From NCBI GenBank assembly GCA_029254025.1, contig JAQWYK010000039.1, positions 62,001 to 126,000 on the forward strand: 64,000 bases of DNA, read 5' to 3'. The notes below the pieces were generated by a model. That model was not told the origin of the DNA and searched no databases. It saw only the letters and a list, made by a program, of their open reading frames with translations. This DNA is from Crocinitomicaceae bacterium (GTDB lineage Bacteria; Bacteroidota; Bacteroidia; Flavobacteriales_D; Crocinitomicaceae). The translations under genes were made by a program, and so were the position numbers. Shown here one piece after another: positions 21,007 to 62,146 of the stretch. The number at the start of each line of letters is the position of its first letter. Within the stretch, counting starts at the first letter, position 1.

Positions 21007-22071
21007 ATGAAGATAGAGGAGCTCATAGGGGATTTATTGTTGCGCACTAATTGTGTGGTTATTCCAGATTTTGGTGGCTTTATATCTAATACCAAGCCAG
21101 CTTACATTGATTATTCAAAAAGGGTAGTACGCCCTCCTACTAAATCGGTAACTTTCAACCGTCATTTGACGAATAACGATGGGTTACTAGTGAGTGAATA
21201 CGCGCGGTTAAAACAGCTAGATTATTTAGCTTCTTCAGCTGATATTGCTCGTTTCGTTTCAATAACAAAAGGAAAGCTAACAAAAGGAAAACGCATTACC
21301 TTCGAAAAGGTTGGGTACTTATATAGAGACACAGGCGGCAACTTATGTTTTGAGCAAGATCGGTTCTTCAATCTCTTAATGGAAGCCTACGGAATGGGGA
21401 GTGTTCAATTTGTGCCCGCCAATTCCATAACATCCGTTTCTGAGCCTAGCACTAAAATAGAAAGTGCACAAAACACCCCTGTAACACCGATTGTTCCAAT
21501 AAAAAAGAATAATCAATTCAATCGAATTGCAAAATATGCAGCAGCAGCTGCTTTATTACCTGTTGTCTTTTATAGTTTTTGGATTCCCTCCCACACTGAT
21601 GTTTTAAAATCTGGTGTCTTGTATACAGAAGATTTTAACCCTTTAAAAACAGGTGGGGAAGCTATATACTTGAAAAAAGAGGTAGCGGATATTTCAATCA
21701 ATCGCGTTGAAAACGAAGTAGACTCTTTTGGTTCGCTTGTTAGCTCACTTCCCGAAAGCGTTTCAGTAATTTCTTTTGAGTTAAACGAAGACACATTTAT
21801 CCCTGTAAGGGTTCGAAAAGAAACCCCGTCAACACCAACAAGTTCAAACAAATCTGGATACCACTTAATTGTGGGGTGTTTTGGTGAAAAATCTAATGCT
21901 GAGAATTTAGTGAATGTGCTTAATGAAAGAGGTCTTCAAGCACAAATCATAGACGTCCACAATGGATTACATCGTGTTTCTGCTCAACAAGGAGGGTCGA
22001 AAAATGAATTGTTCGAGGCTCGCGAAACCCTGAACAACATGGGGTATTCTTCTTGGTTCTTAAAGAGGTAG
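21007..22071 (+). CDS. HU-CCDC81 / SPOR domain protein
   Basis: A 354-residue protein. The N-terminal part (1-130) matches the HU-CCDC81 double domain of Bacteroidota (IPDFGGFISNTKPAYID, FNRHLTNNDGLL, ITFEKVGYLYRD). One transmembrane helix lies near 178-196 (YAAAAALLPVVFYSFWI). The C-terminal 75 residues are a SPOR domain (YHLIVGCFGEKSNAENLVN), which binds denuded peptidoglycan at the division site. The protein would place the HU-like part in the cytoplasm and SPOR in the periplasm. A link between nucleoid and cell wall is inference from the layout. Confidence 0.88.
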   Translation: MKIEELIGDLLLRTNCVVIPDFGGFISNTKPAYIDYSKRVVRPPTKSVTFNRHLTNNDGLLVSEYARLKQLDYLASSADIARFVSITKGKLTKGKRITFEKVGYLYRDTGGNLCFEQDRFFNLLMEAYGMGSVQFVPANSITSVSEPSTKIESAQNTPVTPIVPIKKNNQFNRIAKYAAAAALLPVVFYSFWIPSHTDVLKSGVLYTEDFNPLKTGGEAIYLKKEVADISINRVENEVDSFGSLVSSLPESVSVISFELNEDTFIPVRVRKETPSTPTSSNKSGYHLIVGCFGEKSNAENLVNVLNERGLQAQIIDVHNGLHRVSAQQGGSKNELFEARETLNNMGYSSWFLKR

Positions 22072-22576: not shown

Positions 22577-23020
22577 TTATCTACATCTTATTTTATTGAC
22601 GCGGGTTGCATGACGACCTCCTTCAAAAGTCGTGTTTAAAAACGCTTCCACCATTTGGATTGCTAAGATTGCGTCTACAAAACGGGCAGGCAGAGCAATA
22701 ATATTCGCATCATTATGTTGTCTTGCCAACATGGCAATCTCTTTATTCCAACATAAAGCACTTCTTATCCCTTGATGTTTGTTGACCGTCATATTAATTC
22801 CATTACCACTTCCACAAATGACAATTCCCAAAACTTCTGGGGTGTTTTCCACGTGCTGAGCGACAGGGTGCCCATGATCAGGATAATCAATACTATCTTC
22901 TGAATATGTGCCATAATCTTTAAAACTATACCCTTGGTCTGATAAATAGTTAATAATTCTATTCTTCAACTCATATCCTGCATGGTCCGCTCCAATGGGA
23001 ATTATTATTGATTTATCCAT
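22577..23020 (-). CDS. rpiB: Ribose-5-phosphate isomerase B
   Basis: A 147-residue RpiB/LacAB family enzyme that interconverts ribose-5-phosphate and ribulose-5-phosphate. It has GADHAGYELKNRI (phosphate site), DYPDHGHPVAQHV, the catalytic Cys in VICGSGNGINMTVNKHQGI and the HNDANIIALPAR block. It is transcribed from a box in the palindrome at 23023-23046, away from the AT-rich gap. Confidence 0.95.
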   Translation of the reverse strand: MDKSIIIPIGADHAGYELKNRIINYLSDQGYSFKDYGTYSEDSIDYPDHGHPVAQHVENTPEVLGIVICGSGNGINMTVNKHQGIRSALCWNKEIAMLARQHNDANIIALPARFVDAILAIQMVEAFLNTTFEGGRHATRVNKIRCR

Positions 23021-23022
23021 AA

Positions 23023-23046
23023 TATTTTTGTTTTAAAACAAAAATA
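23023..23046. repeat. 24-bp perfect palindrome with two facing -7 boxes
   Basis: The 24 bases are a perfect palindrome, reading TATTTTTG at 23023-23030 on the plus strand and the same octamer on the minus strand at 23039-23046. The minus-strand copy is placed 18 bases before the rpiB ATG and is a good -7 box. The plus-strand copy would read into the AT-rich gap. A dyad of this length may also bind a dimeric regulator. Confidence 0.55.
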
Positions 23047-23717
23047 GCCTTATTAACATTCCGTTTTACTTTTACACATTGCGAGTTATTTACAATTTAT
23101 GAACTCCTTATTTATAAGACTTATTCAACATATATTATACACATGTAATACTACTAAATTGTTAATAGCTGTGAATTAATAATAATAAGTTTTACTTGTA
23201 TAAATCAATAATAATTAAATGCAGATTTGTTTTCCTAATAAACTAGGAGAAGTTGTTGATTTTTGTAATTACTTATCGCCTATTTTTACACGATAATTAA
23301 AACAACTTATATATCTAATTTATAAACAATACTATATTCCATCATTTTTGTGAATAACAACATAAAAACCTTATAACGAAAACATTAATTAAGTATTGAT
23401 TGTTATTAACTTATCTATTATTCATTATAAATCATAAATACAAGGTTGAATGCTTTTTTTAATACACATTATTAACACCTTAATAGTAATAATAAATAGT
23501 TTTAATTATAAATTCTTTTTTATTATATTATAAAAAATGACCTTTTCTTTTGATTGTAAATAGAAAAAAATAAAGAGTTAGTTTTGATATCTTAATGCAA
23601 CATAATTCAAGCGAAAATAATTTTATCATGTAAATTTTCATCGAAAAGATTATTAGTTTCAAATTATAAATAGTTGATTATTACATTATTTATTGCTTTT
23701 TAGCAAAAAAAATACAT
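23047..23717. other. Very AT-rich intergenic region; candidate replication origin
   Basis: No credible gene. In the 660 bases 23041-23700 I counted 129 G+C (about 20%). Two sequences match the DnaA-box pattern TTATnCACA: TTATACACA at 23135-23143 and its reverse-strand form TGTGAATAA at 23349-23357. Two more differ by one base (23070-23078 TTTTACACA; TGTGAATTA near 23170). Gene orientation switches around this region, and parS-like sites lie 8-11 kb to the right. It could instead be a long leader or regulatory region of the LytTR gene. No dnaA gene is visible. Confidence 0.4.
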
Positions 23718-24470
23718 ATGTCAAAAACAAAAGTGTTAGTTATTGAGGACGAATCGATTGTATCGAAAGATATTCAACACAGTTTGAAACGTCTTGGTTA
23801 TGTAGTTTGTGGTGCTGCTTCTACTGGTGAAAAAGCCATTGTGTTAGCCGAAGATGAAAAACCAGATATTGTTTTGATGGATATTATGTTGAAAGGTGAA
23901 ATGAATGGTGTAGAGGCTGCAGAAATAGTAAGAAGAGAACATAAAATTCCTGTAATATTTTTGACTGCTTATGCTGATGAATCAACGTTAAACAAAGCTA
24001 AGATAACTGAACCATATGGCTACATCATAAAACCATTTAAAGAAATTGACCTTCACACGTCTATTGAGATGGCGTTATATAAACACAAGAAAGAACAAGA
24101 AGTGGAAAAAGAAAGGGGTTTGTTTTATTCATTGGTTGAAGGTAGAGATACCAATGAATTTATTTTTGTAAAGGCAAATTCGAAACTTGTGAAGCTAAAT
24201 TTAAAAGACATCTATTTCATTGAAGCTTTAAAGGACTATGTAGTTATTAACACGAATGAAAAACGATATACTATTCATTCTACAATGAAAGATATTGAAC
24301 GAAAGTTAGGGGTTGAACAATTTATTCGAGTACACCGATCATTTATAGTTCGTTTAGATAAAATAGCGTCTATAGAATACCCAAATCTGCAACTGGAAAA
24401 AGACAAAAAATTAATTCCAATTGGAGGATCTTATAAAGATGATTTGGTTACAAAGATTAATTTGATTTAA
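23718..24470 (+). CDS. LytTR-family response regulator
   Basis: A 250-residue regulator. The receiver domain (1-120) has VLVIEDESIV, phosphoacceptor Asp in IVLMDIMLKGEMNG and the signalling Lys in YIIKPFKEID. The C-terminal LytTR DNA-binding domain (150-250) has IFVKANSKLVKLNLKDIYFI, then VHRSFIVRLDKI. LytTR regulators often control cell-envelope genes, and an M23 peptidase gene follows 12 bases later. No sensor kinase is adjacent. Confidence 0.93.
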   Translation: MSKTKVLVIEDESIVSKDIQHSLKRLGYVVCGAASTGEKAIVLAEDEKPDIVLMDIMLKGEMNGVEAAEIVRREHKIPVIFLTAYADESTLNKAKITEPYGYIIKPFKEIDLHTSIEMALYKHKKEQEVEKERGLFYSLVEGRDTNEFIFVKANSKLVKLNLKDIYFIEALKDYVVINTNEKRYTIHSTMKDIERKLGVEQFIRVHRSFIVRLDKIASIEYPNLQLEKDKKLIPIGGSYKDDLVTKINLI

Positions 24471-27643: not shown

Positions 27644-27877
27644 ATGAAAAGACAATACTAAGGTGTGACTTTAAGACTGTAAGACAACGTCTCTTTTTAT
27701 TGGCTTTAATTGAGTTTATGGCATATATTAACCATCACAGGAAAATTGTGGTGTTGTTTCATAGCATTGGTTCTTATGTCACACGAACTTAGTAAAGATA
27801 AAAGATTAACATCTTTTTACTTAACTTTATTAGGGCAATTCATAACTTTAGCAGGTTTTGGACGTTTGTATATAAGA

Positions 27878-30800
27878 ATGGGAAGAATTGATGATTTATT
27901 GAATCAAGTGGATGCTTTCATTAGAAAGTACTACAAAAATCAAATGTTACGAGGAGCTGTTCTTTTTGTATTGATTTTTGCGGTTTCCTATTTGGTGGTA
28001 GTTGGGCTTGAATTTGTGGGACGATTTGATTCTTCTGTACGTTTTACTTTGTTACTCTTTTTTCTTATCATCAATGGATATGTGTTTTCGAAATACATCG
28101 TTTTTCCGCTAGCTAAGTTGTTTTCGTTTGGAAGGAGGATTAATCGATATCAAGCAGCAGAAATTATCGGACGATTTTTCCCAGACATAAATGATCGGTT
28201 ATTGAATACACTGCAGCTGAATGATGCTGCTGCAATGCAAGCCGGTAACTTAGAATTAATTCAAGCAAGTGTTTCGCAGAATGCTAAAAAATTAACTTCT
28301 TTTTCTTTCACAAAGGCGGTTGATTATAAAGAAAATAAGAAGTATGCTAAGTTTTTTATTCCCTTAGTAGGGGTTATTATTGTTATAGCTGTTTTTGCAC
28401 CAGCCCTATTCAAAGAAGGAACGACACGACTGGTGAACTATAATGAACTTTACCCCGAATTAGCGCCATTTCAATTTACCATACTAAATATGGAGGAAAC
28501 TTTAGAGGAGGGAGAAATGTATATAGTGGAAGTGCAACTTACAGCTGATGAACAAGGAAGTATACCGAGTCGATTATTTATTGAAAGCAATGAGGGGAAA
28601 TTCATGATGCAACAAACAGCGAAAAACAAGTTTCAATATATTTTCCAAAAAGTAAATAAATCCCTAGAGTTTCAATTTTTGGGAAATGGATATTATTCGG
28701 ATAAATATGAAGTTGACGTTGTTGGAAGAACAAGTTTAGGAAAGTTAACCGCTACATTGTCCTACCCGTCTTATTTGGAACAAAGTGAAGAAATAGTTGA
28801 AAACGTAGGTGATTTAATAGTGCCTGAAGGAACACAAGTTGAATGGTCTGGAGTAAGCAAGAATGCAAAACTTATTTCTGTGATATTCTCTGATTCAACT
28901 TATAAATACACACGTGATGGTTTTAAAGTGAGTCGCCGATTTTTAAAAAATGATCAGATGGAGGTTAGACTAGATAATAAGTTTATCCCAAAAACAGACA
29001 CGTTATTGCATAGAATTCAAGTGATAAAAGATCAATACCCTTCTATACAAATTACTGAGAGAATGGATTCATTAACTACGGGTATGCGTTACTTTTCTGG
29101 TGAATCTCGAGATGATTATGGTTTGAAAGCAGTAATGTTTCACTACGAATTAACAAATAATAATTTGGTGAAGTTGGAGAAAAACATTGCAGTTCCTGGA
29201 ATCACCGGAAATAAATCGCCTGTATCACTGAGTTTTGATATTTCTAAGTTGCCATTAGGGCTTGAGGATGAGGTTGTTTATTATTTTATGGTGTATGATA
29301 ACGACGGCGTTAATGGATCCAAGTCTTCTAAGTCAGCTACATTTAGATACAAGGTTCCTACGGCTCAAGAGTTGTTTGAGAAAAGGAAAGAAGACAAGGA
29401 GAGCTCTAAAGAAGAGTTGAATGAATTATTGAATGAAGCGACAGAGTTTAATGAACGTATCGATCGATTGAAAAAGGATGTATTGAATTCTAAAAACAGT
29501 GGGTGGAAAGAAAGTCAACAACTGGAGCAATTAAAAGAACAGCGTTCTTCCTTGGAGAAACGAATGGAGCAGCTGAAAGAGAAAATGACTAAGTCGTTCG
29601 AAGAAAAAAATAATTTGAGTCCTGCAGAGGAAAGGTTATTGAAAAAACAGGAACTCTTAGAGGACTTGATGGACGACATAATGGATAAAGAATTAGAGGA
29701 CTTACTCAAGCAGTTAGAGGATTTAATGAATAATCAAGAGAAAGAGGGTGTACAAGATGTTTTTGAGGAAATGGAGCTTTCTGCTGAAGACATGGAGCGT
29801 CAACTAGATAGAACAATGGAAATGCTCAAAAAAATGGATGTGGAGGAGCGGATTGAAGATATTCAGAAAGGCCTGGATAAACTTGCGGAGGAGCAACAAG
29901 AACTGAAGAAGGAGTTAGAGCAGAAGGGAGATAAAGATAGAATAAGTAAAGAACAAGAAAGATTAAAAGAGGAGTTTAACAGACTAGAAGAAGAATTAGA
30001 AGAGGTTTTAGAGAAAAATGACGAGTTGAAGAGGCCATTGGATTTAGATGAGCTTAAGGAGGACAGAAAAGAGGTGAATGAAAAAATGAGTGAAGCTGAA
30101 GAAAATTTAGAAAAGAAGAAAGATAAAAAGGCTGGCGATGCTCAAAAGGCTTCATCTGAGAAAATGAAGGAAATGTCTGATAAGATGGAGGCAATGACAG
30201 CCAAAAGCCAGCAACAACAAAAAGGGGAGGATATAGAGTCGTTAAAGCGCTTGTTAAAAGCATTGATGGGCCTTAGCTTTTCGCAGGAGGACGTAATGGA
30301 TAACTTTGAACAGACGTCTGTTTTAAGCCCTTCTTGGGGGGGGTATGGCCGTGAACAGCGCAATATAATGGATAACACCAAACCGGTTGAGGATAGTTTG
30401 CGCGCGTTAGCAGATAGAGTACCAAAAATATCGAAGTTTGTGAATACAGAATTATCCACGATTAATTTAAATTACAATAGCTTACCTGATGATTTGGATG
30501 AACGCAGAAAGCGTGAGCTCGGAGTTAAACAGCAATATGTAATGACCTCTTTTAATAATTTAGCGTTGTTTCTGAACGAATCACTAGAGGAGATGCAAAG
30601 GGAAATGCAGAGTATGATGGCTGGTAGTGGTTCATGTGATAAACCTGGTGGAAAAGGTAAGGGGAATAGTGGGGAAATGGATGGGTTGAAGGAGATGTTG
30701 AAGAAACAATTGGGAGAAATGGAAAAAGGTTCAAACCCTGGAGGAGAAAAACCAGGCGAACAACCTGGGTCGAAGCCAGGAGAGAAATCTGGTGGAATGC

Positions 30801-31231
30801 TTCCCTTGGGCGCTAAAGAAGCGGCTCAAATGGCTGCACAACAGAGTGAGATTCGTCGAAAACTAGAAGAACTAAAGAAGGATTTAAACAAGGATGGTAA
30901 AGGAACCGGAAATCAGTTAAATGAATTATTGAAGGAGCTAGAAGAGCAAGAGGAGAGTCTAATTAATAAGGAGTGGAACAAAGAGCTTATTTCGCGTCAA
31001 AAGGAAATAATTACAAAGTTATTGGAAAGCGAAAAGGCACTAGAAGAAAGAGGCTTTGAAGAAGATAGGGAAAGTAAATCAGGAAAAGATGAAAATTTTA
31101 GTAACCAAATAGAATTTCTTGAGTATAAGAAACGAAAAGAAAAACAAATTGAGCTTTTGAGAACGCTTGATCCGACATTTAATAAGTATTATCGCGAGAA
31201 GGCGAATGATTTTTATAATCGTATTTATTAA
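27878..31231 (+). CDS. DUF4175-family membrane protein, giant coiled-coil
   Basis: About 1117 residues from the ATG at 27878. Two N-terminal membrane helices (LFVLIFAVSYLVVVGLEFVG and FTLLLFFLIINGYVF) are followed by one near residue 165 (FFIPLVGVIIVIAVFAPALF), a beta-rich periplasmic region, then a very long charged coiled coil (about 505-820) of Glu/Lys/Leu repeats and a Gly/Pro/Lys-rich stretch near 930-1000. This is the DUF4175 layout of Bacteroidota; function unknown. In-frame starts further upstream (TTG 27710, ATG 27776) exist, but the family begins close to the FIRKYYKNQ block. It heads a cluster with ybeY and mnmG. Confidence 0.85.
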   Translation: MGRIDDLLNQVDAFIRKYYKNQMLRGAVLFVLIFAVSYLVVVGLEFVGRFDSSVRFTLLLFFLIINGYVFSKYIVFPLAKLFSFGRRINRYQAAEIIGRFFPDINDRLLNTLQLNDAAAMQAGNLELIQASVSQNAKKLTSFSFTKAVDYKENKKYAKFFIPLVGVIIVIAVFAPALFKEGTTRLVNYNELYPELAPFQFTILNMEETLEEGEMYIVEVQLTADEQGSIPSRLFIESNEGKFMMQQTAKNKFQYIFQKVNKSLEFQFLGNGYYSDKYEVDVVGRTSLGKLTATLSYPSYLEQSEEIVENVGDLIVPEGTQVEWSGVSKNAKLISVIFSDSTYKYTRDGFKVSRRFLKNDQMEVRLDNKFIPKTDTLLHRIQVIKDQYPSIQITERMDSLTTGMRYFSGESRDDYGLKAVMFHYELTNNNLVKLEKNIAVPGITGNKSPVSLSFDISKLPLGLEDEVVYYFMVYDNDGVNGSKSSKSATFRYKVPTAQELFEKRKEDKESSKEELNELLNEATEFNERIDRLKKDVLNSKNSGWKESQQLEQLKEQRSSLEKRMEQLKEKMTKSFEEKNNLSPAEERLLKKQELLEDLMDDIMDKELEDLLKQLEDLMNNQEKEGVQDVFEEMELSAEDMERQLDRTMEMLKKMDVEERIEDIQKGLDKLAEEQQELKKELEQKGDKDRISKEQERLKEEFNRLEEELEEVLEKNDELKRPLDLDELKEDRKEVNEKMSEAEENLEKKKDKKAGDAQKASSEKMKEMSDKMEAMTAKSQQQQKGEDIESLKRLLKALMGLSFSQEDVMDNFEQTSVLSPSWGGYGREQRNIMDNTKPVEDSLRALADRVPKISKFVNTELSTINLNYNSLPDDLDERRKRELGVKQQYVMTSFNNLALFLNESLEEMQREMQSMMAGSGSCDKPGGKGKGNSGEMDGLKEMLKKQLGEMEKGSNPGGEKPGEQPGSKPGEKSGGMLPLGAKEAAQMAAQQSEIRRKLEELKKDLNKDGKGTGNQLNELLKELEEQEESLINKEWNKELISRQKEIITKLLESEKALEERGFEEDRESKSGKDENFSNQIEFLEYKKRKEKQIELLRTLDPTFNKYYREKANDFYNRIY

Positions 31232-60916: not shown

Positions 60917-62146
60917 TTGTTGAGAAATATTCACGTTTTAGCATTTACACATCGACAACTTGAAGTTAGTCAGATTGGTTTGTTGCACATTGGTATGGAT
61001 AACCAGCAGGAAAGGCTCAGCAATTTAAAAATGAATTCTGACCTAGAGGAGCTCTTGTTTTTATCTACATGCAACCGCGTAGAGTTTATTTTCAAAACGG
61101 AACAAGAGGTAGATGAAAAGTTTATTCAAACTTTCATTACTAATCTATATCCTGATTTCCTTGAAGAAACGATTACCCTGTTTTGTCAAAACTATGAGTA
61201 TTACCAAGAAATCAACGCTGTCAAACATCTGCTCAAGGTGGCCTCTTCTGTGGACTCAATGGTAGTAGGAGAGCGCGAAATTATTACACAGGTAAGAAAA
61301 TCATTTGATAGCTGCAGAAAGTTTGGTTTAACAGGTGACAGCATACGTTTATTGATTCGTTTCGCGATTGAATCGGCAAAGCGTATTTATACCGAAACAA
61401 ATATTTCACAACGGGCTGTTTCGGTGGTTTCTCTAGCATATCAAACACTTGAGAACAAGAATATTCCGCTAGATGCGAGGGTGCTAGTCGTTGGTGCGGG
61501 AGTTACCAGCACGAATATGCTCCGTTTTTTAAAAGAACATGGCTATGTCAATTTTGTCGTATTTAACCGGTCAGTTGAAAAAGCGGATTCTTTAGCCGTT
61601 GATGTTGGCGGAAGGGGTTTTCCTCTGTCGGAGTTAAGGAACTATAAGGAGGGTTTTGATGTAATCATTACATGCACTGGTGCCGAAGAGGCTGTCATTA
61701 CACCAGAAATATACGAACAGTTGCTTCACGGAGACACTTCGGAGAAAACAGTTATTGATTTGGCAATTCCACATGACTTAGACCCTGTTATTCCGAATAT
61801 ACATGTTGTGGAGCACATATCGATTGATTATTTGCAAAACCTGTCCCGAAAGAACATCAAGGAACGGACGAAAGAAATAATTTATGTTGAGCACATCATT
61901 GCCGAAGCTGTGTTTGAATTTAAAAAAATGGCGAAACAACGCGCCGTTGAGGTGGCTATGCGAGAAGTTCCTGAAAAGGTAAAGGAGATTAAAGCAACAG
62001 CTTTAGAACAGGTTTTTGCTAAGGAGTTAGCTCAACTTGATGGAGAATCGAAAGAAACAGTAGAGAAAATTATCGATTACCTAGAAAAGAAATACATCAG
62101 TCTTCCCATGAAAATGGCAAAGGATATACTATTAAACGCACAATAA
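60917..62146 (+). CDS. hemA: Glutamyl-tRNA reductase
   Basis: A 409-residue enzyme that reduces Glu-tRNA to glutamate-1-semialdehyde, the first step of heme synthesis by the C5 route. The catalytic Cys lies in LFLSTCNRVEF; further blocks are VDSMVVGEREIITQVRKSF, VSVVSLAYQTL and the NADPH loop VLVVGAGVTSTNMLRFL. The start is non-ATG: TTG at 60917 or, more likely, TTG at 60920 just after the -7 box. It leads a hemA-hemC-hemD run. Confidence 0.95.
   Translation: MLRNIHVLAFTHRQLEVSQIGLLHIGMDNQQERLSNLKMNSDLEELLFLSTCNRVEFIFKTEQEVDEKFIQTFITNLYPDFLEETITLFCQNYEYYQEINAVKHLLKVASSVDSMVVGEREIITQVRKSFDSCRKFGLTGDSIRLLIRFAIESAKRIYTETNISQRAVSVVSLAYQTLENKNIPLDARVLVVGAGVTSTNMLRFLKEHGYVNFVVFNRSVEKADSLAVDVGGRGFPLSELRNYKEGFDVIITCTGAEEAVITPEIYEQLLHGDTSEKTVIDLAIPHDLDPVIPNIHVVEHISIDYLQNLSRKNIKERTKEIIYVEHIIAEAVFEFKKMAKQRAVEVAMREVPEKVKEIKATALEQVFAKELAQLDGESKETVEKIIDYLEKKYISLPMKMAKDILLNAQ

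Follow-up and report, generated by a model that had tools for sequence, protein, structure and literature searches.

The oriC of Escherichia coli lies in the gidA/mnmG–mioC region, away from dnaA, and combines DnaA boxes in both orientations with a flanking DNA unwinding element (DUE). The BUS of the Bacillus subtilis oriC comprises DnaA-boxes 6/7, DnaA-trios and an AT-rich DUE (PMC6669920; survey in PMC8287927), and experiments in that species provide the model for the loading of ATP-DnaA from a box onto the trio strand (PMC6669920). According to the BUS rules, a box with ≤2 mismatches to TTATCCACA is followed by a spacer of 0–16 bp and ≥3 trios of the form.A. (PMC8287927). As the authors of Ori-Finder have pointed out, oriC is not always close to dnaA (PMC10225481).

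Here, we describe an AT-rich gap upstream of rpiB that, judged from its sequence, is very probably the chromosomal oriC of a Crocinitomicaceae-like bacterium and is predicted to be DnaA-dependent. An earlier sequence-only reading had proposed a replication origin at this place, a proposal now supported by a contig skew minimum in the gap, a conserved array of boxes and the skew minima of three relatives in the same gap. This is a known kind of origin, its modest novelty residing in an rpiB anchor without dnaA, a relaxed DnaA box and the spelling of the trios. No paper on a link between rpiB and oriC in this phylum was found in a literature search of incomplete coverage.

The window (the whole 64,000-bp stretch analysed, to which all coordinates refer unless stated otherwise) corresponds to positions 62001–126000 of contig C36 in a genome of 2.70 Mb and 50 contigs. 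Skew in this genome was read on C36 (273 kb), one contig of the 50, and in part on C41 and C47, while gene-strand counts over the contig were made on ORFs of ≥150 aa. Relatives were reached through homologues of rpiB at 80 named loci, among which Fluviicola, Brumimicrobium, Crocinitomix and Lishizhenia supplied the closest. Feature coordinates are collected in Table 1.

Table 1. Features of the candidate origin and its flanks (conservation: sequences with a box within 1 mismatch in an alignment of 16 sequences).
Feature	Coordinates	Strand	Conservation or remarks
Candidate oriC	23021..23717	none	AT-rich gap between divergent rpiB and LytTR response regulator; 697 bp, 19.2% G+C
rpiB (ribose-5-phosphate isomerase B)	22577..23020	-	PF02502; conserved flank of the candidate origin
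LytTR response regulator	23718..24470	+	PF00072 + PF04397; other genes in its place in more distant relatives
Predicted DnaA box TTATTAACA	23050..23058	+	13/16
Predicted DnaA box TTTTACACA (1 mismatch)	23070..23078	+	12/16
TTATTTACA, exact TTATNNACA	23086..23094	+	Position not conserved
Predicted DnaA box TTATACACA (sequence-only reading)	23135..23143	+	16/16
Predicted DnaA box CTATTAACA (1 mismatch)	23160..23168	-	10/16; weaker, control pattern 11/16 at 23164
Predicted DnaA box TAATTCACA (1 mismatch)	23170..23178	-	8/16
Predicted DnaA box TTATAAACA	23320..23328	+	11/16
Predicted DnaA box TTATTCACA (sequence-only reading)	23349..23357	-	15/16
Predicted DnaA box TTAATAACA (1 mismatch)	23401..23409	-	16/16, 12 exact
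Upstream tandem DnaA box TAATACACA (1 mismatch)	23460..23468	+	Poorly conserved
Unwinding-module DnaA box TTATTAACA	23469..23477	+	Module conserved in relatives
Five putative DnaA-trios	23480..23494	-	3'-AAT TAT CAT TAT TAT-5'; core conserved in 16 sequences
Predicted DNA unwinding element	23479..23540	none	Nearest-neighbour energies

The gap is gene-free and AT-rich, as the sequence-only reading had described it; the low G+C stands, with the reading's count (129 of 660 bases) off by two from the 131 of 660 obtained by script. Of all 600-bp stretches in the window, the one lowest in G+C lies in the gap; the longest stop-free stretch there is ≤49 codons, and a search for Rfam RNAs in the gap found none. 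About 1 kb from the candidate origin, positions 21007–22071 encode a protein that combines a SPOR domain with two domains of the HU-CCDC81 type.

Two TTATNCACA boxes had been reported in the gap; both are present, and they are the only matches to this motif between 9.6 and 38.9 kb. Strict TTATNCACA is nevertheless a poor guide, with 159 sites genome-wide versus 127 for a reversed control, and is missing from many homologous gaps. Motif-free k-mer enrichment over 32 homologous gaps returned mostly TGTNNATAA forms, that is, TTATNNACA, and the predicted DnaA box of this lineage is this sequence, relaxed at positions 5 and 6. Besides the two strict boxes, the gap holds four further exact TTATNNACA boxes that the earlier reading had missed. 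Across the 273-kb contig, the gap is the densest TTATNNACA cluster, and the top 700-bp windows all start at 22.45–23.3 kb.

About nine box positions are conserved among the 16 relatives' sequences, so that the array keeps its position as well as its content, as expected of an oriC; the boxes at 23160 and 23170 are to be held loosely, because two control columns also appear in the alignment. A second conserved block, at 23200–23300, reads ACTTGTTT...TTTGGTTTGGAATAAT...CAAG in the orientation of rpiB and occupies the same place in L004, L005, L006, L007, L009 and L011; its TTCCAAACCA element is exact in six gaps, and in the window the block is degraded. It does not correspond to a DnaA box, and another protein may bind it.

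These observations bear on the possibility that the gap is a mere long divergent promoter region, AT-rich by neglect, with boxes that arose by chance or serve DnaA as a transcription regulator. The gap does sit between divergent genes, and AT-rich DNA raises the odds of meeting AT-rich 9-mers, but 750 bp of the gap region hold six exact copies of TTATNNACA versus 0.7 ± 0.8 when the same DNA is shuffled, a cluster above chance. Box positions are also conserved, the gap is retained where the gene opposite rpiB is replaced and skew minima coincide with the rpiB-upstream gap in four genomes, our own contig included. We consider a promoter region of this kind a very unlikely explanation.

The sequence-only reading also missed a module of box and five trios at 23469–23494, together with the unstable stretch that adjoins it. 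From 23460 to 23494, the order is TAATACACA, TTATTAACA, CC and TTA-ATA-GTA-ATA-ATA, with the trios read on the opposite strand. By nearest-neighbour energies, stability in the window is lowest in stretches beginning at 23492 (40 bp), 23479 (60 bp) and 23480 (100 bp), giving a predicted AT-rich DUE beside boxes, as is typical of an oriC. The layout agrees with the BUS rules: TTATTAACA has two mismatches, the spacer is 2 bp and there are five trios. The trios are spelled AAT TAT CAT TAT TAT, compared with the canonical 3'-GAT-5', and in CP034120.1, among other relatives, the run of trios opens with GAT.

Only one place in the 273-kb contig has an exact TTATNNACA box with five trios beginning no more than 16 bp after it, and the 23-base core, at ≤3 mismatches, occurs once in the whole genome. 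As a module pattern with fixed spacer proved too strict, a variable spacer was adopted for a blind search of 79 genomes, which yielded nine matches to the core versus two for the reversed control. The nine come from two families, and every one of them lies approximately 0.4–0.5 kb upstream of rpiB.

By analogy with B. subtilis, BUS-type opening is likely at this origin. In this genome, the scheme builds on sequence layout, conservation, stability and skew; the filament, unwinding and helicase steps are carried over from B. subtilis. DnaA, supplied by a distant gene, would bind the loose TTATNNACA array, which spans approximately 430 bp. An ATP-DnaA filament would then grow from the box at 23469 onto the trios at 23480–23494, stretch the trio strand and open the unstable DNA that adjoins them, as far as about 23540; helicases would load there, and two forks would depart bidirectionally from the gap.

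The cumulative GC-skew check proposed by the sequence-only reading gave a minimum for the whole 273-kb contig at 23547, within the gap, after which the curve climbs. The gene-strand bias that it described holds contig-wide, with 20 plus-strand and 42 minus-strand genes to the left of the gap and 70 and 56, respectively, to the right, and its hand counts (67 G/70 C in ispG, 90 G/57 C in mnmG) were reproduced exactly by script. At fourfold-degenerate third positions, skew rises across the gap from 0.033 to 0.220 in plus-strand genes and from −0.158 to 0.057 in minus-strand genes; since both sets shift alike, the signal follows replication and not gene direction alone. The same fourfold-site shift occurs across the homologous gap in CP034120.1. 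Placement of the gap at the skew minimum, as for an oriC, is to be read with two caveats, a near-tied dip about 4 kb rightward, near 28 kb, and one relative whose minimum lies 40 kb off. The second dip is almost as deep because skew is flat between the two. It is sharpened by a gene for a DUF4175 protein (27710–31231, 1173 aa) that has the strongest positive GC skew in the window (0.36).

Among the relatives, the complete, Fluviicola-like chromosome CP034120.1 showed a single skew V from 20 sampled stretches, and over 430 contiguous kb its minimum (4,108,324) falls inside the rpiB-upstream gap (4,108,189–4,108,852), which is also the densest DnaA-box cluster there. This record (L033) is titled Glaciecola amylolytica; its rpiB locus has the Fluviicola layout, so the organism name is probably wrong. 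In a contig of Flavobacterium endophyticum, sampled skew is mostly negative before the gap; beyond it, values are mixed or weakly positive, and the local 40-kb minimum lies at 1,548,414, in the 1,024-bp gap preceding rpiB (1,549,236). The complete chromosome G044, from the same order and another family, has a record that starts at the rpiB-upstream locus, and its sampled skew forms a clean V, up to 1.6 Mb and then back down, with the minimum at the ends of the record; its unwinding module occupies bases 443–465. In Brumimicrobium salinarum the signal is blurred, with the local minimum approximately 40 kb off the gap, and 20 sampled stretches of CP096136.1, a Flavobacterium MAG chromosome, showed no clean V, which counts neither way. 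In Flavobacterium paronense, the rpiB/gap locus appears at five contig places (L052, L058, L059, L060 and L062), including contigs of 15–20 kb; these copies are probably assembly duplicates.

Two observations could favour an origin close to the gap but outside it, such as one near gltX (~27.7 kb) or beside mnmG (32–34 kb): the near-tied dip, and the assignment by Ori-Finder of an origin at mnmG to a Bizionia relative (PMC12843772). Such an origin is extremely unlikely: there is no box cluster at these places, the module of box and trios is unique in the contig and the skew minima of relatives lie in the rpiB gap itself.

An oriC in the rpiB gap lacks a common but not required trait, adjacency to dnaA and dnaN. 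The location of these genes, which the sequence-only reading had suggested checking, turned out to be elsewhere, dnaA on contig C47 and dnaN on C41; this is compatible with oriC, dnaA being far from the locus in relatives too. We give almost no credence to an origin at dnaA, as in many bacteria, with the gap as a secondary DnaA-titrating locus: a few TTATNNACA boxes do lie upstream of dnaA (C47:10.5–11.2 kb), where they would suit dnaA autoregulation, but dnaA of CP034120.1 (1.353 Mb) is nearer the skew maximum (sampled at ~1.6 Mb) than the minimum, in G044 a distance of 0.46 Mb separates dnaA, on the rising skew arm, from the origin, and none of the nine matches to box and trios is at dnaA. 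The domain IV signature of DnaA in this genome (G000:C47) is GGKDHATVLHA. In E. coli, the corresponding motif is DHTTV, and the looser box may be connected with the DHATV found here.

For a family where dnaA is a misleading landmark, the rpiB gap offers a precise, testable candidate origin, 697 bp long, in which the predicted unwinding core takes up 26 bp. Whether Flavobacteriales share an origin fixed at rpiB, away from dnaA, with a DnaA that reads relaxed TTATNNACA and non-canonical NAT trios, is a generalisation that we advance only tentatively and regard as somewhat doubtful. A core of box and trios upstream of rpiB could serve as a simple origin marker for draft genomes of the order, aiding growth-rate estimates from read depth and the correct rotation of assemblies.

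Compared with known systems, the candidate origin resembles the B. subtilis BUS in its tandem DnaA boxes, short spacer and central-A trinucleotides followed by very unstable DNA, and the 11 bp from upstream box to first trio lie within the published 10–13 peak (PMC8287927). It differs in a box relaxed at positions 5–6, to which DnaA binding is predicted, in its site far from dnaA and in trios that are mainly AAT/TAT/CAT, GAT being limited to some relatives, where it opens the series; the looser box and the trio spelling would extend the BUS idea. Like the Bizionia/Algorimicrobium oriCs predicted for Bacteroidota with Ori-Finder/DoriC, it has been recognised by skew and DnaA boxes, but the marker named in that Flavobacteriaceae genome paper is mnmG (PMC12843772), whereas the fixed partner here is rpiB. 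With the E. coli oriC it shares distance from dnaA, boxes in both orientations, a flanking DUE and mnmG, here approximately 9 kb away; unlike E. coli, its neighbours are rpiB and a response regulator, and its boxes are looser.
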